Source: Lyophyllum atratum | Lineage: Eukaryota > Basidiomycota > Agaricomycetes > Agaricales > Lyophyllaceae | Reading direction: 5' to 3' | Assembly (NCBI GenBank): GCA_014905825.1 | Contig: JACGCN010000018.1 | Span: forward strand, 186,001 to 250,000 | Length of the DNA: 64,000 nucleotides | In this document: positions 3,093 to 41,123 of the stretch, in pieces | How positions within the stretch are numbered: position 1 is the first letter of the stretch | Layout: each line of letters begins with the position of its first letter | Position numbers and translations under genes: made by a program | Notes under the pieces: generated by a model | Seen by the model: only the letters and a program-made list of their open reading frames with translations | Told to the model about the DNA's origin: nothing | Databases searched by the model: none

Positions 3093-6000
3093 TCACCCAA
3101 GAAGGCGGAACCGCACGATGGTGCGTTGACCCGGGAACAGCATGTGGCTATGGTCAGGCAGGACCGCGATCTCCAGCTCCCCATGCATCTGCGGGGCGCT
3201 GACATCCAAAGATTGGGAGATCTGAGGCTTACGGTGGACGCACGCGAAGCGCGTCACGATACTGCGGTTCGGGGTAGACTGCCAACACGTCGGCCTACAT
3301 AGAACGCGTGAGTTGGAGGGAGGGGGGAGACGCTATAATCCGAACCAGACGTACTTGAACTCCAAGCCCCCCGCACGCGCCATCTCGTCCTTCAACTTTA
3401 TGGTCTGCCGATGTAGGACCTCCCTCCTCCCTACCACGTCAAAATCCAGCGCGACCACGGAGAACTCGCCCTCGAACCCGAAGGTCGATGTGACGCGTGG
3501 GTGTTCCTCCAGGGACTGTTTGTAGCGCACATACAATGATTGGGCTTCGAAGAAGCATGTGATCCGGGTGCGGAACTCGTCGAGGAGGGCAGACCAGCAT
3601 TTGTACGCTGGGTAGGGAGACTCCTGGAAGTGATAGATAAGTTAGATGGGAAAAGATCATGTTGAGTACATGGTATTTACCGCGGATGGCCTGCGAGTCG
3701 TCTCGGATTTGCTGGCGTCACTCCGTGGTCGTCCCCCCCATTTCTTATGAGAACGCACCAGCCGCGTGGTACACTGCCCACAAAAGACACTTGACGAAGC
3801 GGCATCGACCCGCATCCCACAATCCAGGCTCTGGCACCGGCGTAAACCCGTCGACGACCTCTCATCGTCCCTTCTTTCAGCTCTCTCGACAGCCTAACAA
3901 CATCATCAGCAACACACTCACCCACAAAGACGCATACATCCACTCACCACATGTTTCTCCTCCTCCTCCTCCTCCTCCGAACCAGACTCCCCTCCATCCA
4001 TATCGGCCCCAGCCCCAGGGGGTCCACCCGAAGCGTCGGCGCCCATGCCCATGTTCATCCTCCGGATCCTATTCCTGTTGTTCCGCGTGCGTACCCGACA
4101 CGGCTCACACATCTTCCATTTGTACTCTTCCCGCGCCGGTATGACGTGCGTGCAGTTCTTGATGGAGCACAGCCGTGCCCCGGGGGTGAGGAGGAGCTCT
4201 TCGGAGGTGGTGGAGGGTGGGACCTTGGGAGGGGGCGCTGGGCGGGGCGTGAAGTCGGTGTCGTGATGCTATCTCAGAGTAAGTACCACCAACCACGAAG
4301 AAAGAGAGAGAGAGAGGAAGACTGACCAGCGCGACTTCAACATCGAGACGCGCATGCCGCCCCTGAATACCCTGCCGCTTCCGCTGGTACTCGCGGTGGT
4401 GCAGCCGGCACGGGACACAGCATTTCCACTGGTATCCCTTGGGGAGGACGCGTCCGCATCGCTTGATGGTGCAGGTTGCGAGGTCGGATAGGGGTTTAGG
4501 TCGGGCGGGGATACGGATCTTTAGGCCGGTTGTCTGGTGGGGCTGTGGGTGAGTCATAAGTAGTCGCGAGGGTGTGGAGACGGAACGTACTGTGAAGGGC
4601 TCGTCGTCGTCGGAATCGATGAGGGAGGAGAGATCGCTGAGGTCGGTGAGGTCGCTGTCCCATCCGGAGATTGTGATAGGTGGGGGTTCTTCGTGGGACG
4701 AGATTGATGAAGGGCCAGCACTAGGCTTGGGGCTGGATGGCTGCGTATCTTGGGGTCGAGTCTTGTCGGGCTGATGAATCACAGGCTGCGTATCCTGGGG
4801 TCCAGTATCGTCGGGCTGAGGACTCACACGCCGAGGTTCCCGATGCTGACAACTATCAAGTCGGGTCCCCACGACCGTAGAAACAGCGTCCAACCCAGGC
4901 TCTACCTCCACCGACGCAGTACCCTCACCCGCCGACTCACCAAGCCCATTACCACCATTGGGGGTGTTAACGGTAGCCCCGCGACCACCCGGAATACGAA
5001 TCTTGATCTTCGGGGTGGGCGTAGGTCCAGGTGCTTCATCCCCGCCCTCATCCTCATCCCCACCCGCTTCCTCCTCATCCCCACCCCCCGCGCCCACATC
5101 CACATCCCCACCCCCCAACCCCGCATCCACATCCACATCCACATCCATCTCATCCGCCCACGTAACAGTCTTCCGCCTCTTATTCGAGGGGACCCTCTTC
5201 GCCTTCCAGTCCTTCATCACGCAGCCGAAACATCGGGGGGTCGTTGCGCTCGCTTGGAGGGGGGCGGTGCAGGATGGGGAGGCGCATATACGATCCTACA
5301 CAAAATAAAAAGAGAACGTAAGTATGAAGGTGCGGTTGAAGGAGGAGAGAGGGAGGGAGACCTACGGGCGGTGGAGGTGGGGGTAGAGGCGGGGGTAGAG
5401 GAAGCGGGTGTCTCTTCACCCTGGGAGGTGGGGGTCGGGGTCCAGAGTCGGGTTTGGGGCCGGATATTCGTGGAGGGTGGGTATCACGAGAAGAAGAAGC
5501 GGGTGGTGTGGGAAGGGAAGCGGGATGTGCGAGTGTCAGTTCTATAGGCTGGTATCGGCATCAGGAAGGGAGAGTGGGAAGGGGAATGGGGAGGGGCTTA
5601 CGTTGACGAACTTCGGTTGGTGGGGGGGAGCGACTGGGCGAGGGGGTATTCGTAATGGGAGGCCGAGAGGGGTGAATAGGGGTGGAAGGGGGGGTGGTGC
5701 TTGTGCGGAGGGAGGCTGTCGTGGACTAGGATGCACTTGTTCTTCTGGAGGCTTTGGGAAGAATATGATGAGTGAGAGTGGAAAGGTGAGCGCGAATCGT
5801 AGTACCTCGGGATATGAAAGTTCCAAATCAGCGAGGTCTTCCTCTGGGGTATCATCAACGACTATCTGCAAGAACGTTAACAATCAGCGCGTAGAACACA
5901 GACTACGAAGGCGGGGAAGATCTAACAGGTGTTGATGACGTCCCACCACTCTCCTGTCTGGGTACCGACATAGGCCGAGGCATCATGGGCTGCGACGGAA

Positions 6001-7024
6001 CCATCCCCTGCGACCGAGCTGCATCCGGGACCCGGTGCAGTTCGTGCCATGGCCCCGAATACCCCTGGCGGCACCGAACACAGATATCCGCAGGATCCTT
6101 CTGGTGAAGGATCGCGGCGCAACCGTGTTGCGCACACAGACGGATTCTGTGACGCGGACGCATGGCATGCGTCCGGGGGTAGGTAGGTATTGAACTCTGT
6201 GGGGGCTGTGTTACGCTTAGCCACGATGTGAGAGGAGGCGTAAATTCTGGGAGACATACCCTGCTGGGAGTCGGGGAGGGCTGGATGAGCTCTCCTTGAG
6301 AATTGAAGTGGGGCGCGAGACTGGGGGTAGGCAGGGGGGAGTGTCGTGCTTGTGCTTCTGGGTTTGCGGTTGTGGGGTGGTGCGGTGGACGGAGGCTGGG
6401 CAGCTTGCGTGCCTGCTGCCTCATGGCTGCTACCTAGACTCCAGAATCAGTCGCAGTTCATGTGTTTCTTTAAAGGAACGGAGGATGTGACTTGGGAATA
6501 CCCTCGTCGCAGGGAATGTATGGAGGGAAATGGACTTACGGAACGCCGTCGCTCGCCGTCCCCCGGGTATGGAATGGACGCACGTCTAGGTTCTGTCGGC
6601 TGGTCGCACAAAGAAAAAGAAGCGGTAAACACGAGATCTGGGCAGCCAAAAGTCATAACTTACAGGTCTTTGTAAGCCCGCGACAGAGGTTGGCCCGGTA
6701 TGATATGCCGACTATAAATCGTTCTTATTATTCAGAATCCAAGTGCCAAACCAATTCAAGACTCACACTCGTCCTCCGGACCCTCTCCATGCCCACTCCC
6801 TTCCCAGACGCGTTCGCGACCAATGGAGCATAAGTCTTGAACGTGACCGCATCCTGCGTGTCAAGCCTTCTTCTCTTCACATCCCGCGCATTCGTCTCCA
6901 ACCGCGAGCATCCCTCGCATGTGTTGCTCGTGGTCCCAGATAGCGGTGTATAGCACCGTCTGCAGACGTTAGCCTCGGACGCACTGTCAATCGACAGCCG
7001 ATGCGTTGGATGGTCGACTTCCAT
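3093..7024 (-). CDS. Large multi-exon protein with repeated Cys2-Cys2 modules
   Basis: Function unknown; probably zinc-binding. At least six modules of the form C-x(2-4)-C-x(9-13)-C-x2-C occur in the minus frame, separated by long low-complexity Pro/Ser/acidic linkers. They lie near 6910-6965 (C-x2-C-x9-C-x2-C), 6075-6147, 5222-5290, 4395-4470, 4085-4160 and 3770-3836 (mostly C-x4-C-x12/13-C-x2-C). The best conserved carry WKxC before the last CxxC (YQWKCCVPCR, YKWKMCEPCR). The linkers contain RIRIP-like and very acidic stretches (DVDVDVD, SEEEEEEE), consistent with a nuclear protein. Start ATG at 7024 opens the first module. The C-terminus uses an intron 3295-3354 (GTACGT...TAG) leading to a final exon ending at 3093; without that splice a stop lies at 3333. 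Several internal introns were not placed exactly. The partial gene at 63667 has the same module. Confidence 0.55.
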
Positions 7025-17344: not shown

Positions 17345-19055
17345 CTACCCCCTCCCCCCCATCTCAGTACGTGCGAGTATGGGCCATTGCGAGCATGGCG
17401 TGACCGAGATCTAGATCTGGGGGCTTCAAGCTTCAAGCCCAGTGAAAAGTCGGTCGGGCGGAATTGAGCCTATTCAAGCCAAACGGTAGTCAATCGAGCC
17501 AAATCTACCCCAAAACAATCATTTGTTGTAACTCATCCAATGGTTTGTGGTTAAGTTCAGCCAATGTTGTGAACTGGAGATGACTTCATGAATTGACTTC
17601 ATCAAATAGACATGTGAAATCCGTCCGACTCAAGCTTTTGTATCGTCATGGACATCTCAACAGAATATTTCCTTTCCTCAAAGCCATTGTTTGCTCTTAT
17701 TTCAGAGCGAACTTGGCGCGAAATACATAAGTCTCACGGAGGCCGCAAAACGACTTCTTCATTTCTTTCCCCCCAACCACCATATTCTTGGGATCCCGTC
17801 TTGCGAGGATGGGACCCAGGAATGATTTCCATGAAGGGACCCCTCGTAGGTGTAAACGGGCTGCCATTACACTGGATACAATTGGGCAATGGAGGAAGAT
17901 GAAGACGTCGACCCACTTAAAAAGGGCCTCGACACCTTCGTTTACTTAGATAGATCCATATGATAGCACCTGCCACAAGGCCAGAAATACCAGGCGCAGG
18001 GCACATGCCAAGTTCAGACAGCCGTCGAAGTGGACGAGCCCGCTGACGAGCAGTGCGGTGGCAGTTCGGTCCTCAGGACGGACAGGTTCTTTAGAGGAAG
18101 CTCCGTGAGGAGCCTTCCAGCGACCGCCGGCACCTTTGGACAAGTGCTCTCCAGGGCCGTGGCAGCAGGGTGAAGCGATAATGTGTGCCCCGCAACACAT
18201 GCACTTCATGTGCCGTGGTCAGGGTCTGGTGGTCGCGGCGTTGGCGTAAGGTCGGAAGACAGAGGAATGGAACTCATGAATATTGAATGGTTCGTGTGCA
18301 GCAGTCAAACACGAATGCCACTGGCAATGTAGGAAGGTGTTGTACTCGAGGTGGACCTCGAAATCGTACTGGAAAGTGGGCTGACGTGAGTTCAAGGGTA
18401 GAGTGTGGGCAGCGGCAAAGACTATGAATTGCCTTGTATTTCACATTGGTGACAATGTTCGATGCATCCCTGAAAACTTCCGGATTCCCCTTCACAGTTT
18501 AGCTGAATCCGACATCAGGGTCCATCCGACTCCAGAGTCCACGATGAATATCCAGCGCCAAATGCCACCCCTGCCTTTGACGATACATTCAATTTTGTTG
18601 CCAAGCTCTGTCTGGATACCCCATACTCTATAACCGCTCCCGGCCCTGCGCCTTACATGTCATAGTCTTTGTTGTTACCAGCATCGCGTCGCGAGTGCAC
18701 AAGGATGACAGGAATGGCAATCACAAGCGAGAGCTTTCATCTGGACCATAGAATGTCGTCCGTTGAAACAAAGTTGGCCCCAGGTTTCATTAAGTAAACA
18801 CCAATATTGATGATCGAAGCTTCAGTGTCCGCTGATTTCGAGTGTAACCCGTAGCTGTCTTTCAGGCCGTGTTTTGGTCTCTTCTTCGTGATGATCGGAT
18901 GATCGACTCACCGCCGTACGCGCTGTATGACAACAAGAACTTTTTTGTAGGGTTGGGGAGTTGTTGCGGGTTAGAGTCGGGGGTGCACTCTGTACACCAT
19001 CAGGCCAGGCTTGATCTGTTGGTAATGGGTAACAAGGGGAAGGTACGACTCTGTG
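17345..19055. other. Decayed sequence inside the expanded HGD intron
   Basis: No intact gene. The minus strand carries scattered coding-like pieces, for example around 18490-18640 (VWGIQTELGNKIECIVKGRG) and a Cys-rich piece at about 18130-18210 (KCMCCGAH). They are separated by stops and shifts. With 24994-25241 and 28731-29505 it forms the material that hosted the LTR and pogo-like insertions. It may be the wreck of an older transposon or gene fragment. Confidence 0.4.
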
Positions 19056-19459
19056 TGTAAGGCCTGGATTGTACATCTCCATCCTTCCTTATAGACTCTT
19101 CACCTACGAGCTCTCTCTTTCTCAGTTTATCCTTGTTTACCTATGGCTTCCTTACGTAATCCAGTAGGTAGAACTCGGACATTGTTATATCTTCAATCTC
19201 ATCTTATTATCATTCATTAGCCTCAGAGCTTGAGTAGAATACTCTCGAGCCTGGAGGCGTCAGATAGATATCCGGTGGACTCTCTATCCGCTTCTCATCG
19301 CTTTCCGCGTCCATCAGAAGGTATTACACCTGTCTGATATACGCGACTAGACTACTTCGCTCCTCTCGAGGTCTTTACACCTCAGCGGACCCCTTTCCGA
19401 CTCGCCAGGGTCCTCGGACGACTCTTCCTTCGAACCCGGGAATCTAGATAGGTTCCACA
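19056..19459 (+). repeat. 5' LTR
   Basis: 404 bp, starting TG and ending CA plus A, and indistinguishable by eye from 24590-24993. It contains direct sub-blocks rich in CTCTC and TCATC. No clear TATA box was assigned. Confidence 0.95.
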
Positions 19460-19522
19460 AAGGTGGACACTGTGGGAAAGTCGTTTCAACCTGGCCGGTC
19501 TCTCGACAATTGTTATCTGATC

Positions 19523-22500
19523 ATGTTACAAGTCCCTCTACTCGGCCTTTGGGTCAAGTATCGGGAATCCATATTCCTTGATTCATTCTCCATTCATGAA
19601 ATCACAAACCATCTTACATCTCACGTCTTGGTCGACCGCGATCTCGTTACGTGTACGACTATCCCGGGCGCGGATAGACATGCACTCGATACATCATTCC
19701 TCTCACGCATCGAACTCCTCGTACCCCGTTTCCAACATCTCCTACACGTCGCTGCATCCATTCGAGGCGAACCAGAGTTCATCATCAATCCCAACAAGCA
19801 CGTCAGCTTGAACTTGCTCAAGTTACTCAGTGGACAGGCACCAAACCCGTCATTACTCAAAGTCGCCTGGTCCGCACTTATCCGTCGACTTCGTTTGGCG
19901 CAGCGTCACTTCCATCGACTCTGCTTCCTCCCAACCGATGAGGAAGCCGCATGGAACGAGATCATACTTCAAGACGCTACACAATGTTGCCCTGCACAGC
20001 CTCAGAAGCCCTCAATCATGCCGCCTTCTGTCGTGGGCACTCAACATCCGAATGCTCGTCAATTCGGACATTGCAATGCTCAGGAGGACACGAAGGATTC
20101 AGGGGATGGAAGAGATAAATGTTGCTGGTCTGGCTTTAGGGGTACACGAAAGGTATGTATGAGCAAACCTCTCGCGCCTACAAGTCTCAAGACCGCATCA
20201 CCTTCCTCTCTCTCTCCATCGTCAACACTCCCTTTGCGAGATATGCAAGACGGAGTCGGTCATATCACAAACAAACCGACTACGCAAGAAAGCGGAGGAA
20301 ACGTCGACGATGGACGCTTCCCGTGGCTTTTCCCGGGGAGTGAGAGGGGATCTCAGGGCTCGTGGCTTTTCCCGAGCGTTCAAGCGTCCTCCATCCTCCG
20401 TTATCCTTCCTCGACGGGCCCTGCGCAACCTATTGCGGAGTCGACACCTGTGCCAACCGCCTTGCTCTCTCAACCACTGGGTGCACCAACTTCTCCGCCG
20501 AACCGTGACGCAACTTCTCCGCCTCGCTCATCCGGAGTCTCATCACCACCGCTTTTGCTTTCGCTGGATTCCATGCCTCCGTCAATGAATCATCCGAGCT
20601 CCAGCCATCTCGAAGCAGAACGCGCGCTCAGTGCGGCCAAGAATCCCGTTAGCTTGTCAGCAACGTCACATCCTCCACCGCTCATCTCATCCCGAGCACA
20701 AGACAAGAACGGAGCTACGTTACTAGGTGGTGTCAAGTCTCACGACGAGGCCAACAGTGACCATGGACGTTCCCTGTGGCCTTTCCCGGGGAACGAGAAC
20801 GGTTCAAGCTCGTGGCCTTTCCCGAGCGAGTCCCTTCCTTCCATTCCACTTGTACCACCTGGCACCCATCTACGCCTTCCACCACCTTCCTCAAGCGACA
20901 TCCTAGCATTACGCGCACCTATTGAAGCTCAGGAGACAGGTCGTCGTGGTGTCGAGCCCGCTCCCGCGCTTGTCAAGCATCCGAGCTCGCGTTCTACTCC
21001 GCACTCACACTCCGGTGCTGGGGGGCAGACAGGTCCTCAGGTGCTCGATACCGATGCATTCAGCTCGCCATTTTCGAGCTCACTGTCAGGCGCGGCTATC
21101 TCCGCCTTAACGCCTTTGCCAGCGCTCACCATCTCCAAGACAATCTCTCATCCACTCCACCATCTTCCAACCCCTTCAACCCCTCCTGGACTCGAATTTG
21201 GCTCAATCCACCAACTCAAGGCGCCTCAGGATGACGCGAGGCCGTTGCCTTACGCAGGACGGCGTCCCACGAGGCTTGAAATCGCCAAAATCGATGTGGG
21301 GAGGCGGCTTACATCGCTGCATCGCGATGATGCAGACTGGGAGAACATGATCGATTCGATCGCGACGGATTGGAGACTGTGGATGGGCAGAGAGAAGATG
21401 AACATGGGGTATGGTATGCGGGGATTCGAGGTGTGTATCAACAATTGGAAGAACTCCTTCCCTCCCCTCGGATCGCTTCTGGACAGACAGGAGTCCAACG
21501 GCGACATTCCCTGCATCAGCGCCGTCTCGAAGTCGCCGCCTCCTCGTTTGACACCGTATCACATGGCTGGCGACACGCCACCACCCCTCACCCTGTCTTG
21601 GCCGACCCATCCAACTTCCCCTGGCATTCACATCGACACCGCCCCTGTGCCATCCAACCCTCCTTCTACGTCGCTATTCGCCGCTCACGACGTGCCTCCG
21701 CTCCACGATGTACCTTCGCCGACGCCTTCCGCCTCTCCTGCGCCTGAAGACGTCCATTTTCCTCTACCGGCATCTCTTACACTTGCGAGCTGCAGCGGCA
21801 GTCCAGGCGACGATGATGCACGACCCAGCACACCATTAGAGCGTCCGAGCACGCCCCTCGATGCGCACTCGAACGCTGGGGGGCACGAGGGTGTGGGTCG
21901 CATGCCAATCGCGTTGTGCGGGCACAAGGCAATGCTGAACTCAGCTACACTCAACGACGATGACCTGAGCGGAGGATTCGCAGATACATCGACCCCTCCC
22001 AGTCTTGGGAGGTCGTCGAAGCCATCGTTGGCCTTCAACGACAACGCTGGCAGCTGCTGCTTTGGCGATCAAACCTACTCGCGCTTCTGTCCTGCTCAGC
22101 CTCCACCTTCGTTCCAGCCATCGCCGTCGATCTCGATGGTCACCGCAGACATTGGTGGTCCAGGTCGACGCCCTCTTCTGCCCGCTTCTTCACAGTCAAA
22201 GCATCCAAGTACGCAATCGGTTGCGCACTCCGATGATAGGGGATGCATCCGTCCGCAGATACACAACGCCACTACCCTTCGTCTCAGGTGTGGCCACCAC
22301 CACAGTCTATGTGGTAAGGACGATACCGGAAAGTCGACCCTCATGGAGGTCGAGGGCTTCCGCTCGAACGTCACCCCCGCTGCCGTCGGTGTGATCATGT
22401 ACAAAGTCGTTGGGTACCGCTATATTGAGCAACGGATCAACTTGCGTGCTGAACACGCTCGTCACTCAAAATGCCGACAGAGGTTCTTGGACCATCCGAA

Positions 22501-24217
22501 GAGCAGCCACGATGCGGATGTGGCTACCAAGATGAAGGACGAGTGTGTCAACTTGAGGCGCGTACTCCTCCAACCTTGGGAAGCACACACTGTCTCCACC
22601 GACAACAACGCCCCTCAGACCATGGTCCCTGTTCCGATCGAGACCAAACCTATGCAACAGGCACGGTGCAACGACCATACTGCGAGCATGGTCAGGTGTC
22701 ACTCGACTGGGACGTCCACGATACAGACCGCCGCAACGATCACGCTCAGGGATGTTATCGACTCTCGCTCCCGCGCCTCCATCCCGTGTTCCTCCTCTTC
22801 GACTTTGTCATCCTCTTCACCACTTATCACAAATTCGGCGGGACTCTTGTGGGTAGCCTTGCCCTCTCTACCATCGATGCCAATGGGTCCACTAGATGCC
22901 TCATCACACTCTCCCGTCGTCTTCCGAGCCCCGTCATTGCATTCGCCATTAATCACCTCGTTAGACGTTGATGGCTCGGATGGTAGTCATTTCGTGCCTG
23001 CTCCCACATTGTCTCAGCCGCCCAGTACCCATTCAATCACACGCTTTGATGCTGGGGGGCGCACCTGTCACCAAGCACTCGATACTGACTCTCCTGTTTG
23101 CTCACTCAAACATTCACTTTCTGATGGAGGCGCTACTCCCGCTTCAATCTCACAACCGGCGCTTACAGTTCCCAGGACACCACTATCCTTCCACTATCGT
23201 GCAAGGCCTCCAGAGGACGCAAGACCATCTTCGTTCGCGCTTCTACGCTCCCAAACACTTCCAGTTGCCGAGTATCATGATAGGGCGCGAGCAATTGAGC
23301 CGTGTCAAGCCTCTGCGGGTACAGAACGTCTTGAGGAGCAGCGGTACAACTCCCTCTGCCCTTCCCGTGCTTCACCTTCTGCTCTTGCTGTACCTGGCTA
23401 TGCGACGGAAGCCAGCCACGTCGCTGTGTCGGTGAAGACCATCATTGGCGCCATTGTCGATGGTCAACTCGAGACCGACACTCCGGGCCGCATCATGAAT
23501 GTCATCGGTCAACCCATTGACGAGCGTGTCCCCATCAAGGGTGTCGAGCTCTCTTTCGTTCATGCGGAAATTTCTCCATTTATCGACCAATCAACCATGA
23601 CATCCTTAGAGCGCCCGAGCACACCTCCAAATGCGCATGCGGAGGCTTGGGGGCTTTCACATATGGATGGCTTCATCATGCCAGTGGCGTCCTCTGGGCA
23701 TGAGACATTGCTGGAGTCAGCAAAGGCGGACGACACTAGTTGCAGCATGCTCACGAGTCCCGCCGCGGCCGCCATTGCGTGCACTCTTGACAAGGAACTC
23801 TCGGGCGACCACCCCCGTTCCATCCGCCGTCTTCTCCATTACTATCACTCCTCACTCCCCGTCCTTCTCGCACCCACCTCCAGCTCACATGGCCTCACCA
23901 CGATGTCGCGATCATTGTTTGACCTCCCGCCAACCCCTCCGTCACCTCATCATGGCAAGGTCTTGAGGTTTGGGGGGCATGGTTTCGATGGAATTTTAAT
24001 TCTATTGCTGGTTAGGGCTCTTGGCACAGGGGTAATGACTCCCGCCTCAATCCTCATCCCTATCATCTTGAACTTGATGACTATCTGTGGAATGATGGGT
24101 TCCGCTCGACCACTCGCTCGCTTTGCCGTCGCTATCACGAGTACTCGAGCGTGGGGGGCAATAGGGGATAGGTACCCAGGAGGCTGGAGTACCGAGTGTA
24201 GCTGGTATGGAAGCTGA
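19523..24217 (+). CDS. Giant ORF of the LTR element with captured host-gene fragments
   Basis: Open for 1,564 codons from ATG 19523; the frame is open from 19463. The N-terminal ~180 residues are of ordinary composition and might be a gag remnant, but no zinc knuckle is seen. Most of the rest is Ser/Pro-rich with internal duplicated modules, such as FPWLFPGSERGSQGSWLFPS and LWPFPGNENGSSSWPFPSES, or ERPSTPLDAHSNAGG and ERPSTPPNAHAEAWG. Two segments resemble conserved cellular proteins. Positions 22365-22650 match the C-terminal half of ribosomal protein eL21 (GVIMYKVVGYRYIEQRINLR, EHARHSKCRQRFLD, EAHTVSTDNNAPQT). Positions 23431-23580 match ATP synthase beta (IIGAIVDGQLETD joined to GRIMNVIGQPIDERVPIK). 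It is unlikely to have a catalytic function; whether it is translated is unknown. Confidence 0.75.
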   Translation: MLQVPLLGLWVKYRESIFLDSFSIHEITNHLTSHVLVDRDLVTCTTIPGADRHALDTSFLSRIELLVPRFQHLLHVAASIRGEPEFIINPNKHVSLNLLKLLSGQAPNPSLLKVAWSALIRRLRLAQRHFHRLCFLPTDEEAAWNEIILQDATQCCPAQPQKPSIMPPSVVGTQHPNARQFGHCNAQEDTKDSGDGRDKCCWSGFRGTRKVCMSKPLAPTSLKTASPSSLSPSSTLPLRDMQDGVGHITNKPTTQESGGNVDDGRFPWLFPGSERGSQGSWLFPSVQASSILRYPSSTGPAQPIAESTPVPTALLSQPLGAPTSPPNRDATSPPRSSGVSSPPLLLSLDSMPPSMNHPSSSHLEAERALSAAKNPVSLSATSHPPPLISSRAQDKNGATLLGGVKSHDEANSDHGRSLWPFPGNENGSSSWPFPSESLPSIPLVPPGTHLRLPPPSSSDILALRAPIEAQETGRRGVEPAPALVKHPSSRSTPHSHSGAGGQTGPQVLDTDAFSSPFSSSLSGAAISALTPLPALTISKTISHPLHHLPTPSTPPGLEFGSIHQLKAPQDDARPLPYAGRRPTRLEIAKIDVGRRLTSLHRDDADWENMIDSIATDWRLWMGREKMNMGYGMRGFEVCINNWKNSFPPLGSLLDRQESNGDIPCISAVSKSPPPRLTPYHMAGDTPPPLTLSWPTHPTSPGIHIDTAPVPSNPPSTSLFAAHDVPPLHDVPSPTPSASPAPEDVHFPLPASLTLASCSGSPGDDDARPSTPLERPSTPLDAHSNAGGHEGVGRMPIALCGHKAMLNSATLNDDDLSGGFADTSTPPSLGRSSKPSLAFNDNAGSCCFGDQTYSRFCPAQPPPSFQPSPSISMVTADIGGPGRRPLLPASSQSKHPSTQSVAHSDDRGCIRPQIHNATTLRLRCGHHHSLCGKDDTGKSTLMEVEGFRSNVTPAAVGVIMYKVVGYRYIEQRINLRAEHARHSKCRQRFLDHPKSSHDADVATKMKDECVNLRRVLLQPWEAHTVSTDNNAPQTMVPVPIETKPMQQARCNDHTASMVRCHSTGTSTIQTAATITLRDVIDSRSRASIPCSSSSTLSSSSPLITNSAGLLWVALPSLPSMPMGPLDASSHSPVVFRAPSLHSPLITSLDVDGSDGSHFVPAPTLSQPPSTHSITRFDAGGRTCHQALDTDSPVCSLKHSLSDGGATPASISQPALTVPRTPLSFHYRARPPEDARPSSFALLRSQTLPVAEYHDRARAIEPCQASAGTERLEEQRYNSLCPSRASPSALAVPGYATEASHVAVSVKTIIGAIVDGQLETDTPGRIMNVIGQPIDERVPIKGVELSFVHAEISPFIDQSTMTSLERPSTPPNAHAEAWGLSHMDGFIMPVASSGHETLLESAKADDTSCSMLTSPAAAAIACTLDKELSGDHPRSIRRLLHYYHSSLPVLLAPTSSSHGLTTMSRSLFDLPPTPPSPHHGKVLRFGGHGFDGILILLLVRALGTGVMTPASILIPIILNLMTICGMMGSARPLARFAVAITSTRAWGAIGDRYPGGWSTECSWYGS

Positions 24218-24579
24218 GGGCCCCATGCCATGCTACGACACGGGATAGGCACCTTGGAGGCTGGAGGATCACGAGTAGCCAGGATGGAGGCTGACGGACC
24301 TGTCTTAGGCCGAGGTGCTGATCAAGCAATGCAAACGGAGGCCGAGTCGACACCATGATGGATATCGTGCGATTTTTTTTCCTGGGACTTGATTTTTTTT
24401 ATCTTCTATTGAACATGATTTCCTACCCATAGTGAGGCGTAACCCCGCATCCCATCCTATCCCATCTCCAATTCCCTTCATGATAATTCTCACTCCTGGT
24501 TCAACCCATCCCATATCCACACACCCTTTCTATCATTTTCTCTGCATTGTTCTTCTTCTTTGAGCTCGCAGCTCAAGAG

Positions 24580-24589
24580 TGGGGGGCTT
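24580..24589 (+). promoter_or_regulatory. Polypurine tract before the 3' LTR
   Basis: TGGGGGGCTT abuts the 3' LTR start (TGTAAGG). This is the position and composition expected for the plus-strand primer. The same octamer TGGGGGGC recurs five more times inside the element. Confidence 0.6.
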
Positions 24590-24993
24590 TGTAAGGCCTG
24601 GATTGTACATCTCCATCCTTCCTTATAGACTCTTCACCTACGAGCTCTCTCTTTCTCAGTTTATCCTTGTTTACCTATGGCTTCCTTACGTAATCCAGTA
24701 GGTAGAACTCGGACATTGTTATATCTTCAATCTCATCTTATTATCATTCATTAGCCTCAGAGCTTGAGTAGAATACTCTCGAGCCTGGAGGCGTCAGATA
24801 GATATCCGGTGGACTCTCTATCCGCTTCTCATCGCTTTCCGCGTCCATCAGAAGGTATTACACCTGTCTGATATACGCGACTAGACTACTTCGCTCCTCT
24901 CGAGGTCTTTACACCTCAGCGGACCCCTTTCCGACTCGCCAGGGTCCTCGGACGACTCTTCCTTCGAACCCGGGAATCTAGATAGGTTCCACA
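24590..24993 (+). repeat. 3' LTR
   Basis: 404 bp, identical by eye to the 5' LTR, followed directly by the CTGTG target duplication. Confidence 0.95.
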
Positions 24994-25709
24994 CTGTGCA
25001 TCAAGAGGTCTTCTTCCGGGAGATCGTCCAGTAGTTTCCATTGTCCAAAGGGGATCCCTGTGAACAAAATTGGGAGTCATACTGCATAGTTATTGATGGG
25101 AGCTGTTGAGAATGGGATATCAAAATACCTACTCATAAGGCCGGAGCACAAACTCTCGCACCACCATGCTAGGAAGGGGAACCACGAGTTGTCCTTTTGG
25201 GTTGTCCAGGGTTTTTCGATCTTTGCTGGGCCTCGTATCTACAGTCAATCACCGGTCTATGAGTTACACCACTCAATGAGTCAAAACATGTTTATCGGCT
25301 CAATTTCAATGGAATCACCTTGAATTCTCTTACATTATGTTCAGACATATTATATGCATGTTATTGTAAAGAAAATCTAAGCTCTGACATCTTCCGATCC
25401 CTTAATAAATGCCAATAGGTGTCAATTCCAGCCAAAAGGCAATTTATAACCGCATAATTTCGTCTCAAAGTCCTATGAAGGGGACACTTTTTGCAGACAA
25501 TACTGTATATATGCCAACAAAGGTTCAAAGGAACGTGTTGAGAGGTTCAATCAATACTGGACTGAGCCAAAATTGACCAAAAGGATGAATTTCAGCTCGA
25601 GGTGGATGCGCAGATGCGGAAGGTCACATCGCGTCACAATCTATTTACGGACTCCGCAAGCCATTAGATACAGGCGACTAATTAACATATCCTCGTCATA
25701 ATTAAAACT

Positions 25710-27919
25710 ATGGTGAACCACGCAAAATCGGACGCACTCAAGAGACAGATAGCTCGAAAAGAAAAGGATGACCTCATGACACAAGCTATTGCACTTTTTC
25801 ACACCAATCCAACGGATGCCAAGACCGGAAAGCCAATTTCAATGCATAAACTCTGTCAGCTTGTTTCCGATGACCACTACGCGCGAACACGACGGCGGGT
25901 ACTTGTTAACGACAGCACATTGGCACGACGACTCAAGGGAGGAATCAGCCTCACAGAGAGCAATGGGAAGAAAGGGTGGCTGGAAGAGGAAGAAGAGGTC
26001 ATTATCGTGGATTATGCGATCGAAACAGCACGTCGCGGATTCCCTCTCAGCCCTAAAAGACTTCGTGAACATGCAGAGAAGATTTTGATAGCTCGTCTTG
26101 GCTCAAAATTTCCAGAAACGAGGTTGGGAAAGAACTGGGCAACCCGATTCATCACAAAACACCACAATAGACTTGGAATGTACTGGTCGTCTGCGATGGA
26201 TAGTTCTCGAGGACGAGCAGTAAACCCTGTAACGAAGGCCGAATACTTCAAGCTCCTTAAAGAAGTCAGAGAAGAACACGCGATACCAGATGAGCTGGTT
26301 TATGGGGCAGATGAAACAGGAGTCCAGACGGGAATAGGTGTCAAAGAGCGCGTTATTGGACCAGCTGGAGCAAAAATACAACATCAGCAAAGAAGCGGCA
26401 ATCGAGAGAACATCACAGTCTTACCTACAATCTGCGCAGATGGAACTTCTATCCCTCCTACCGTTATCTACAAAGGCGAGGCCTTCCAAACAAAATGGCT
26501 TCAGGAAAACCCATTGGATGCTAGGTGCGTCAGAGTTCATCTATATGTCCGTGCAAATAATAAGTCTATGTCCGGTACATCAGAATGGGCTATCAAAAGA
26601 AAGGATACACATCAGGCGAGATCGCTATAGCATGGATAGAAGACTGGGATCAACTCACGACTCGAAAAGCCAATGGCCGACATCGACTTCTTGCAGTTGA
26701 TGGCCACAGCTCACACTTTACGATGGGATTCCTTGAATATGCACGCAAGAATCAGATCGTAGTTCTTTGCTATCCTTCGCACTCCACTCACATTTATCAG
26801 GGCCTTGATGTTGTTATCTTTAGTGCCTTGAAGCGAGCCTGGAGCGACGAACGCGACATCTTCGAGCGGAGTGGACCTCCTGTATCAAAGGTTAACTTCC
26901 TCGGAGTCTATGCAAAAGCACACATACGCGCCTTTACAAAGGAAAACATACTTTCTGCCTTCCGAAAGACAGGAATGGTCCCGTACAATCCCGACGTTAT
27001 CACAGACGAGATGATGGCACCGAGTCTGGAGACCTCTATCTCCGCGTGTTTGCCGTTGACGCTCGCAAGTCCTGTTCAAGTAATATCAGATCTTTTTTCA
27101 CGCCATCGAGCTCGAAAACACCGCAGTGAGGATGACCTTCAAGACGACGAGGCTCGCCATACCCCATCCCGAAGGCTAACTCCTAGCACCGAGCTGGACT
27201 ACACACCTGTTCGACAAGCGTTGAACGGGTTAGCATCGACCTCGGCATCATTTTTAGTCTCCAATTCACCACTCACCTCGTCATTTCACCTTCCTGCTCT
27301 GCAAACATACGAGATTTCGCCTTACAAGCGGGACCAGGACTTGTTGGACACCATACCCGAAACAGAAAATGAACGGCGACTCATGGCAGCGCTAGGCAGG
27401 AGAAACAATCAGATATCACTCCAAAAGCAGATCATTAGAGGACAACAGGCACAAACCATTCTTCATTCTGCACATGTTGAGGATTTGCGGGGTCAGCTAC
27501 AGGGAAAAGAAGAGAGGAAGGCTCGGGGGAATGACAGAGGGAAGATTAACATGGACGGACAACCAAAGATCCTGACTCAAGACCAGATCTTCAATTGCGT
27601 TGCAAAATCTCAGCAGGACCGTAATGCTGCAAAGGATGCTGCCATCAAACGGAAGAGTGCAAAGACGAGATATGCAGAGGCTATAGGTATATGGAAAGTC
27701 AGAGAGATGGACAGGAAGAAGAAAAACGACGCACAAAAAGCTGAATGGGCAAGAGATGTAAGGAAATGGGAAGTAGAGAAGAATCGGGCAAAATGTGAGC
27801 GACAAAAACCCAGATGGACCAAGCCAAAGATGCCACCTGCAGAGAAGGCTGCCCCCAAGCCAAAGGTTGCTGATTTTGTGGAGGAAAGCGATGAGGATCA
27901 GGCATGGCCGGTAGTATGA
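25710..27919 (+). CDS. Pogo/Fot1-like DDE transposase, C-terminus cut by a MITE
   Basis: Cut-and-paste transposase of the element at 25242-28728. There are two exons, 25710-26524 and 26584-27919, around a 59-nt intron (GTGCGT...CAG). The splice joins PLDAR to MGYQKKG in frame, giving about 716 residues. The N-terminus holds a helix-turn-helix/CENP-B-like region (STLARRLKGG, LGKNWATRFITKH). The acidic triad is visible: D in YGADETGVQTG, D in LLAVDGHSSHF, and the third D in IYQGLDVVIF after CYPSHSTH, the pogo DDxD arrangement. The C-terminal part is basic and coiled. The stop TGA at 27917 is the first codon of the nested MITE. The original acidic tail continues at 28384-28482. The catalytic core is intact, so the element could still be active. 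Confidence 0.88.
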
Positions 27920-39629: not shown

Positions 39630-41123
39630 TCAAAGCAGGAGAGAGCGAAATTCAACCGACGGTTGTAAGAATGGTACGAGATGATTTGGCAAAGGCACGG
39701 AGATAGGGAAAAGCAAAGCCTTCGACGCGAACACGCCACGCGAAGGTTTATCCGCCGGGTTCTCAGCCGTCGGAACCCACACAGGGATGAGTGTAATCTT
39801 ACAGCGCTTCGTCAACGCAACGATCTCTCGTAAGATCTCCAGCTGCTTCGCATGCCTCGACTTTCCCTTGAGGAGAGACTGAACAACGCCCCAGTTGTCC
39901 GATCTCATAACGATGGTCTGCGAGTGAAAGCCCGCGGCTATAGCGACGTGCAAGCCGAGTTCGACTGCCACCATCTCGGCCCAGTTGTTATCGCGGCCTT
40001 GGCATTTCCACCCTGGTTTGAGCTTCCACGCTAACCACCGCCCATTGAGCATGAAACCCACCCCCCATCCCGATGCGTCGACAAAGATCTCGGGGGTGTC
40101 AGACTCGCCCAGAGGAGGACGCCGACTCGATGGTTTTCCTGGGGTGAGGGATGGGCGCACGTCCTTCCATTCGAGGATGAGGGATTGTTGTACGCGGGTT
40201 CTGTCCTTTGATGGTGTGAGATGTGCCCCCATATAGAGCTCGTTAACTCTTAGCAAGGCTTGGGTGTCGCCCTCACGTGCGTCATCCATGAGTTGATTTA
40301 GCTCGAAGACGCTTCCCTGAGTTCCCAAAGCCGGCGTCGTCCCGCAGCTCTCCGAGGTTGGCTCCCGGTCCACACATTCCATAGTTCCCTTCGGCGACGC
40401 GGAAACTGAAGCCTCGTAGGCTTCATCATTGGCTGAAGCTCGCGAACCATCCAAAAATATGGAGTCGGGGGGCGGAAGAGCCGAAGGGAGGGGTGATACT
40501 TCTGGCAGCGCTTCCGGAGTTGATGGTGGAGAAGGCAGGTATGATGGTATGCGTGAAGGTGACGCTGGGGGCGTTGGTAATGGTAGTAGATCGACTGGTT
40601 GAGAACTCGACTCGAGCGCGTACGTTTCCTGATCCTCGTCGCCAGATGTCCCCAGAAGAATATTCTCGAGGTGCGTCATGCGATCTCCCACGAATGGTTT
40701 TCCACCAGTAGAGAACTCTACCATCTCATCGAATAGGGCCTGGAGGGATTGGAATCGCTCCTGGATATGAAGCAATGCCTCCTTCGTGGCGAGCAGCTCG
40801 GCAGTGCGATGGTTTGCAAGCTCTACAGCTTCATCGCGCTCGACACGATACTGCCTAACCATATCTGCGGTGTGGCCATATTCCTCCTCCTCAAGACTGC
40901 CGCGTTCACAGAATCCATTGAGATAACAGAACGTACGTGGGCTGTCGCGCTCTTTCACGGCGTCCCGGAACGACGGATCATTCTCCAACTGGCTGCTCGC
41001 AGCGACATGCCTCACATAATGAAGGCATGTATTGCAGCCTGAGGAGTGGACGATCCCAAATACGGGGTCGCAGGTCCAAGTAGGACTGAAAGGCCGAATC
41101 CGACGTTGATATTCGGACGACAT
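39630..41123 (-). CDS. RNase H-like protein derived from a retroelement, with CxxC and coiled-coil N-terminus
   Basis: Single open exon of 497 residues, ATG 41123. The N-terminus has a Cys pair (SSGCNTCLHYV) and a coiled coil (MVRQYRVERDEAVELANHRT and following). A long Pro/Ser linker comes next. The C-terminal third is an RNase H fold: EIFVDASGWGVGFML (first D), WAEMVAVELGLHVA (E), IVMRSDNWGVVQSLLKG (D) and NPADKPSRG (last D). All four catalytic positions are present. This resembles the RNase H part of DIRS/Ty3-type reverse transcriptases, but no reverse transcriptase, integrase or LTR lies near. It therefore looks like a stand-alone, possibly domesticated gene. Its role is unknown. Confidence 0.65.
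   Translation of the reverse strand: MSSEYQRRIRPFSPTWTCDPVFGIVHSSGCNTCLHYVRHVAASSQLENDPSFRDAVKERDSPRTFCYLNGFCERGSLEEEEYGHTADMVRQYRVERDEAVELANHRTAELLATKEALLHIQERFQSLQALFDEMVEFSTGGKPFVGDRMTHLENILLGTSGDEDQETYALESSSQPVDLLPLPTPPASPSRIPSYLPSPPSTPEALPEVSPLPSALPPPDSIFLDGSRASANDEAYEASVSASPKGTMECVDREPTSESCGTTPALGTQGSVFELNQLMDDAREGDTQALLRVNELYMGAHLTPSKDRTRVQQSLILEWKDVRPSLTPGKPSSRRPPLGESDTPEIFVDASGWGVGFMLNGRWLAWKLKPGWKCQGRDNNWAEMVAVELGLHVAIAAGFHSQTIVMRSDNWGVVQSLLKGKSRHAKQLEILREIVALTKRCKITLIPVWVPTAENPADKPSRGVFASKALLFPISVPLPNHLVPFLQPSVEFRSLLL

Follow-up and report, generated by a model that had tools for sequence, protein, structure and literature searches.

The window analysed here is a 64,000-nucleotide stretch of the genome of Lyophyllum atratum (Agaricales, Lyophyllaceae; contig JACGCN010000018.1, positions 186,001 to 250,000, forward strand), in which positions 19,056 to 24,993 hold a long terminal repeat (LTR) element whose single giant open reading frame (ORF) contains in-frame pieces of host genes. 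We call this element E62, after contig C62, and its sister element on contig C61 is referred to as E61. The 5' LTR (19056..19459, plus strand) and the 3' LTR (24590..24993, plus strand) of E62 are direct repeats of 404 bp (TGTAAGGC...GGTTCCACA) that start with TG, end with CA and are identical at 404/404 positions. They are bounded by the target-site duplication CTGTG, with its 5' copy at 19051..19055 (+) and its 3' copy at 24994-24998. Directly downstream of the 5' LTR lies a putative primer-binding-site (PBS) region (19460..19484, plus strand), which is common to E62 and a full-length chromovirus, its likely helper. An inverted repeat followed by a polypurine tract, AGAGTGGGGGGCTT, precedes the 3' LTR (24550..24589, plus strand) and is conserved in the same form in E61. 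The inverted repeat is a perfect 7-base repeat with a 3-base loop at 24560-24576, directly 5' of the polypurine tract, and it is kept in both E62 and E61.

Each 1,000-base flank of E62, left and right, was used on its own as a query against the genome that holds the window (64.76 Mb, 151 contigs). E62 landed inside a repeat. Where the matches of both flanks extend to the insertion point, they share exactly 5 bp, the length of the duplication, in 8/8 repeat copies. Two diverged copies of the invaded repeat, on C13 and C46, are consistent with this overlap. The unfilled sites indicate that E62 moved as a whole unit, and its insertion is recent and precise. The initial annotation, read by eye, had named the identical LTRs, the CTGTG duplication and a recent origin, and the alignment and the empty sites bear out all three. 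Elsewhere in the genome, the invaded repeat (18056-19055 and 24994-25242 of the window) has at least eight further copies that match well, with 92-100% identity to the flanks.

The single ORF of E62 spans 19463..24217 (+) and comprises 1,584 codons when counted from a GTG; the 1,564 codons reported at first are correct when counting starts at the first in-frame ATG, at 19523. Its longest stop-free run is 1,589 codons, compared with a maximum of 740 and a median of 265 in 500 order-2 Markov simulations of the element, and the other five frames contain 33, 39, 69, 47 and 82 stops. Near its end, a conserved C-terminal module with two hydrophobic segments occupies 23969..24088 (+; residues about 1503-1542), and the 3' end of E62 including the LTR is 89% identical to that of E61. 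The absence of a reverse transcriptase (RT), claimed from the sequence at first sight, withstood the profile search: Pfam found no RT or integrase family in the E62 ORF, simple motif patterns found no zinc knuckle, retroviral protease or RT active site in it, and Pfam and PDB searches found no RT, integrase or protease in the ORF of either element. No public relative of the whole ORF reached E 0.001 among 7,987 scored candidates (words from the first 500 residues, proteins of 0.55-1.75 times the ORF length), and none of a 211-residue N-terminal piece reached 0.01 among 90 candidates. In the same collection, the Gag of the helper found 24 proteins as a positive control, some of them from this assembly. 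Since the collection holds proteins of this assembly yet gave no relative of the ORF, the ORF seems to be unannotated there, within the limits of the protein search.

Four host genes have contributed pieces to the E62 ORF, and in all captured blocks the native frame is that of the element. The first piece (22264..22345, plus strand) covers the region around the Walker A motif of an ABC domain of eEF3 and is 85% identical to the host gene; the donor ORF matches yeast eEF3 with E 2.7e-44. The second, at 22367..22644 (+), is a DNA match to the host eL21 gene with one host intron precisely absent, and ORF residues 965-1061 match eL21 in a PDB phmmer search with E 2.7e-23, in agreement with the eL21 segment first proposed at 22365-22650. 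The third piece (22632..22733, plus strand; 81%) derives from the region C-terminal to the kinase domain of a protein kinase gene, a donor named by a Pfam Pkinase match at its cut-off. The kinase and eL21 alignments overlap by 13 bases, and the best join lies at 22635-22636. The fourth donor is ATP2, which encodes the F1-ATPase beta subunit. Its N-terminal piece 1 (23337..23383, plus strand) and piece 2 (23397..23478, plus strand) are separated in the host by an intron that is absent here, with a 3-nt length difference at the join, and piece 3 (23479..23597, plus strand) is joined in frame with the loss of 189 nt of coding sequence. The identity of this segment, earlier placed at 23431-23580, is supported by a match to solved F1-ATPase beta structures (E 7e-6), and its composition was misjudged: there are three pieces rather than two, the extra one being 5'.

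The best 60 of 83 structure matches of the E62 ORF are all eL21 or F1-ATPase beta, and Pfam gave only a sub-threshold L21e match. A genome DNA search with the internal region of E62 returned 37 matches and added the eEF3 and kinase donors, so that the two captured genes recognised initially are both real and two more had been overlooked. Several donor genes occur on two contigs each, pointing to haplotypes or to a recent duplication in the assembly. An eL21-like scrap (56%) at C64:2781142-2781249, outside the E62/E61 family, adjoins a Copia-like ORF (Copia reading by eye); with no repeat of at least 40 nt around it, and with that ORF adjoining, it was rejected as a further copy of the element.

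A genome DNA search with the LTR, whose copy counts are lower bounds, found at least five LTRs: the two in the window, two in E61 and one solo LTR on C46 with the target-site duplication TGTAT. Thus there are at least two full copies, and the other copies with the same LTR that the initial annotation proposed to look for do exist. E61 is a full element on the minus strand of C61:79561-85864, with LTRs identical at 403/403 positions and the target-site duplication TGCGA; its LTR differs from that of E62 by 22 mismatches and 3 gap positions. The E61 ORF has 1,745 codons, with a stop-free run of 1,750 codons compared with a simulated maximum of 600. It matches eEF2 (E 2.8e-34), the mitochondrial processing peptidase beta subunit (MPP-beta, 2.1e-27) and carbamoyl-phosphate synthase (CPS, 3.7e-4), and the CPS donor gene itself matches CPS at 3.9e-81. 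The CPS, MPP-beta and eEF2 pieces are contiguous over 1.1 kb, in sense and in frame, and a further CPS piece of 34 bases (97%) lies about 480 bases upstream. A hint of ribosomal protein S3 in the E61 ORF (Pfam E 0.14) was dropped as chance. Comparison of both elements with the full set of seven donor loci showed that the cargo is disjoint: E62 matches only eEF3, eL21, the kinase and ATP2, and E61 only CPS, MPP-beta and eEF2. The claim that several genes are fused into one ORF therefore stands for both copies, with four donors in E62 and three others in E61.

Relics of the middle part alone are present at C24:961787-962424, C130:1170060-1171792, C130:1218177-1218676, C119:2121107-2122000 and C86:131313-132206, with no LTR-like flanking pair in 10 kb around each. 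Other pieces of eEF2 (E 3.1e-38) are present in the C24 relic, indicating that eEF2 capture is not confined to the intact E61. At positions 4074-6366 (reverse strand) of C130:1213001-1223000, an eEF2-like relic lies between inverted repeats of 106-118 nt that are 95-99% complementary. The repeats span about 2.3 kb, an arrangement reminiscent of a DNA transposon that has acquired part of the LTR element. The relic loci on C119 and C86 are 99.8% identical over 9.4 kb, again suggesting haplotypes or recent duplication in the assembly.

A 25-letter pattern of the LTR end and PBS occurs without mismatches at eight places in the genome (reversed control, 0), namely in E62, E61 and six other loci. 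Five of these six have their first ORF codons, VDTVGTTDNLAG, in common; on C75 the frame is broken after 14 codons, and it reaches a stop at 159 codons on C46 and at 150 on C97. At C13:34024-46330 we identified a full-length Ty3/gypsy chromovirus, the only one of these copies read for pol, with LTRs identical at 475/476 aligned bases and the target-site duplication CATCT. Its first frame contains zinc-knuckle and protease-like motifs by pattern and no Pfam family, and its pol frame, which follows after one stop codon, encodes RT (4.8e-31), RNase H, an integrase zinc-binding domain and a chromodomain, with the integrase core below the cut-off. On C97 and C100, the start stretches match the C13 copy at 99.3% identity, over 902 and 1,158 bases, respectively. 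Between pol and the 3' LTR of the C13 element (C13:43109-45870) lie two long stop-free frames of 364 and 555 codons.

The C13 chromovirus and E62/E61 have in common the LTR tips TGTRAGGC and AGGTTCCACA, U5, 5-bp target duplications, 50 bases that run from the LTR end across the PBS (86-88%) and a polypurine core, GGGGGGCTT, which in the chromovirus occupies the same place as the E62 tract. The 3' parts of the LTRs are 63% identical over 180 aligned positions. Pieces resembling the chromovirus LTR are also embedded in the giant ORFs: one of 65 aligned positions in E62 (20313..20377, plus strand; 77%, E 4e-8), a second, weaker one at 20778-20830 (E 9e-4), and one of 64 aligned positions in E61 (80%, E 4e-11). 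From these matching termini, the C13 chromovirus is likely to be the helper of E62 and E61, the autonomous partner that the initial annotation had suggested seeking.

The N-terminal module of the ORF was found in the genome only in E62 and E61 and belongs to no Pfam family. Profile comparison by hhalign against 16 chromovirus Gag domains nevertheless identified residues 68-153 (19664..19921, plus strand) as a divergent Gag N-terminal domain (probability 95.8, E 7.9e-9, score 58.2), compared with scores of at most 21.3 in 200 column shuffles and 12.2 for the reversed control. Sixteen of the 24 public proteins found by the helper Gag matched its domain; the 16-row profile combined 14 public proteins covering most of the domain with the C13 and C2 Gags. 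A profile of the two helper Gags alone scored 36.9, compared with at most 23.3 in 100 shuffles. E62 carries this N-terminal domain only, and the zinc-knuckle pattern of a complete Gag is absent. Because its N-terminus is a Gag domain, E62 is not purely cargo.

We then compared the two ORFs with each other and with the donor genes. All 19 captured blocks (19/19, 596 codons) are ungapped and free of stops in the donor frame, confirming that the pieces are in frame with the element ORF. E62 and E61 are related as patchworks: several of their shared blocks are out of order, and 3,063/3,095 aligned ORF bases have the same phase (2,002/2,034 outside the two colinear end blocks). Between E62 and E61, dN/dS is 0.16 for codons 1-173 (17 synonymous and 9 non-synonymous differences), 0.54 for the next 56 codons, 0.52 for the C-terminal 120 codons and 0.68 for the pooled middle blocks. 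The dS values are 0.17-0.18 in the end blocks and 0.40 in the pooled middle blocks (some of which are perhaps paralogous repeats; the colinear middle block also gives 0.40). The lower dS suggests a younger age for the ends than for the middles, an expected outcome of recombination between sister RNAs. For the captured pieces against the host genes, pooled over 502 codons with ATP2 piece 3 and the second half of eL21 left out, dN/dS is 0.53, which indicates that their host function is not being kept. The native frame of the 19 blocks and, more strongly, the phase kept in the shared blocks suggest that the open frame is selected although the middle of the ORF is a patchwork.

Selection would probably act on a translated and functional product. 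Alternatively, the frame may be kept open for the sake of the RNA, through escape from nonsense-mediated decay or through packaging, with native-frame pieces enriched only for their absence of stops. The patchy, drifting middle is compatible with this explanation, and the wholly different cargo of E62 and E61 implies that no particular middle sequence seems needed. Against it stand the purifying selection on an N-terminal module that is still recognisable as Gag and the C-terminal module, which is also kept, and we consider it unlikely, if the most serious of the alternatives.

A letter-by-letter comparison with the donors, with intron borders assigned by eye on the basis of donor sequence and frame, showed that four host introns are absent from the captured pieces: one of eL21, two of MPP-beta and one of ATP2. 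The eL21 intron and both MPP-beta introns were removed exactly from GT to AG. Every captured piece is in sense orientation. That of MPP-beta extends over the start region and presumed 5' untranslated sequence, and in E61 its start codon is altered. The absence of four introns, three of them precisely removed, indicates that host-gene capture went through spliced RNA. Capture through RNA had been proposed from the lack of introns in the element, and the host eL21 and ATP2 genes were indeed found with the introns that the element lacks.

Spliced sequences could also have reached the element indirectly, if the host pieces had been retroposed as processed pseudogenes and joined to it later by DNA recombination. 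The eL21 scrap outside the element at C64:2781142 and the scattered relics of the family would fit such a history. Against it, the CPS, MPP-beta and eEF2 pieces of E61 are contiguous within 1.1 kb, and serial DNA recombination would demand many independent in-frame events; furthermore, no processed copy was recognised among the donor matches, where second genomic donor copies were not each checked for introns. We regard this route as improbable. Read-through transduction of genomic DNA beside the element, one classic route of capture in the excerpted account of PMC13317346, is far less probable still, as it is contradicted by the absence of the introns and by the positions of the seven donors, which lie on several contigs or far apart, with none of the listed donor matches on C61 or C62. 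Finally, a host chimeric gene flanked by LTRs by chance, or an assembly artefact, might be invoked because full copies in the assembly are few (at least two), and is scarcely credible given the identical LTRs, the target duplications at three independent sites, the unfilled sites in 8/8 repeat copies and the sister copy on another contig.

We therefore interpret E62 as a non-autonomous LTR retrotransposon derived from a Ty3/gypsy chromovirus lineage that has repeatedly taken up pieces of spliced host mRNAs, a reading to which we assign a probability of roughly 0.8. The element has no pol and has retained its cis-acting signals and the N-terminal Gag domain. Most likely, its RNA is packaged in particles of a related autonomous chromovirus, and the C13 element would mobilise it in trans. 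During reverse transcription the enzyme may switch templates to co-packaged cellular mRNAs and to RNAs of sister elements, template switching thus being the probable capture step. The survivors would be those products that keep one long frame, with the Gag domain first and the hydrophobic C-terminal module last.

Several observations weigh against this interpretation. The LTRs of the element and of the helper resemble each other at the tips alone and, weakly, in the 3' part. The helper was not among the matches listed by the genome DNA search with the element LTR, and a pattern of 26 letters around the polypurine tract, allowing up to 3 mismatches, found E62 and E61 only. The absence of stops from the captured blocks is by itself only moderately unlikely: without selection, the expectation is 5.9 stops with all 253 differences assigned to the element (P 0.003) and 2.9 with half of them so assigned (P 0.05). 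The captured residues drift, as their pooled dN/dS against the host shows, and the kinase piece alone reaches 1.6. Microhomology at joins is the usual sign of template switching. Taking the best of tied breakpoints as the observed value and comparing it with random positions, we obtained a total of 14 bases at eight joins against a mean of 8.9 (P 0.014); this is not convincing, as 6/14 bases come from one join and 5/8 joins have none or one base. The ORF product is a prediction from the sequence, and the PBS is putative.

Outside E62, the window contains two further features related to mobile elements. Two overlapping ORFs at 25710-27919 encode a Tc5-type DNA-binding domain and a DDE_1 endonuclease, as if a transposase gene had been split. 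A 497-codon ORF at 39633-41123 on the minus strand has a sub-threshold match to RVT_3 (RNase H-like).

LTR elements that have captured cellular genes are known mainly from plants and, in the form of oncogene capture, from retroviruses. The maize element Bs1, which lacks pol, had been cited as a precedent in the initial annotation. It is indeed the closest one: the excerpted account of Bs1 describes pieces of three host genes in one chimeric gene that is transcribed and translated (PMC13317346). As far as that account goes, E62 resembles Bs1 as an LTR element with several host-gene pieces fused in one ORF without introns. It differs in its mushroom host, in the seven donors distributed over two sister copies with disjoint cargo, in the ORF length of 1,584-1,745 codons, in the identical LTRs of both copies and in the identification of a likely helper. 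Convergence of the two elements is likely, as one host is a plant and the other a fungus.

Genes inside full-length LTR elements have also been counted (672, 1,343 and 424 captured genes; PMC3726574). In the excerpt of that study these are annotated genes within elements, whereas E62 unites a Gag domain and several donors in one fused frame. In bdelloid rotifers, LTR elements have gained additional ORFs (PMC5408684) and share with E62 the acquisition of extra coding sequence; unlike E62, they added whole enzymatic or envelope-like ORFs and kept gag and pol. A fungal screen for fusions of transposable elements and host genes discusses capture by helicase-bearing elements (PMC10799480), and no fungal LTR element with multiple captured mRNAs came up among the open-licence PMC matches listed.

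E62 shares its LTR tips, PBS, polypurine core, 5-bp duplication and Gag N-terminal domain with the Ty3/gypsy chromoviruses of Agaricomycetes, and differs from them in that zinc knuckle, protease, RT, RNase H, integrase and chromodomain were not found in it. Large retrotransposon derivatives (LARDs) and terminal-repeat retrotransposons in miniature (TRIMs) are non-autonomous elements with LTRs, a PBS and a polypurine tract that are mobilised in trans and have no long coding frame. E62 is like both in being non-autonomous, with LTRs, a putative PBS and a polypurine tract, and unlike both in its very long frame of 1,584 codons; in LARDs the long internal region is non-coding. Pack-MULEs, Pack-CACTAs and Helitrons are DNA elements that capture genomic pieces. 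E62 is a similar mosaic of host-gene pieces, in contrast to them with LTR termini and without introns. Regarding its ends, E62 has direct LTRs, and the one inverted pair of at least 20 nt found when 18500-25600 of the window was scanned is internal; Helitron ends were not scanned for.

The kind of element is thus known from Bs1, and what is new is the multi-cargo sister copies, the constraint on the frame and the fungal host. A single genome contains two recent copies with different sets of spliced host mRNA pieces in one long frame, together with a full-length relative that could move them, so that the steps of capture, namely packaging of cellular mRNA, template switching and selection for an open frame, become testable in a fungus. 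They also show one way in which conserved proteins come to be joined in new in-frame fusions. We tentatively go one step further and suggest, as a possibility that we hold at less than even odds, a family of LTR parasites living by serial, ORF-selected capture of host mRNA. In such a family the Gag head and the hydrophobic tail would be kept, the middle would change rapidly as an in-frame patchwork made up of host transcripts, scraps of LTR and pieces of sister elements, and the Gag fusion would be made and bind its own RNA. If so, each cycle would test new in-frame fusions of abundant host proteins, and the family would amount to an exon-shuffling machine that works from mRNA.

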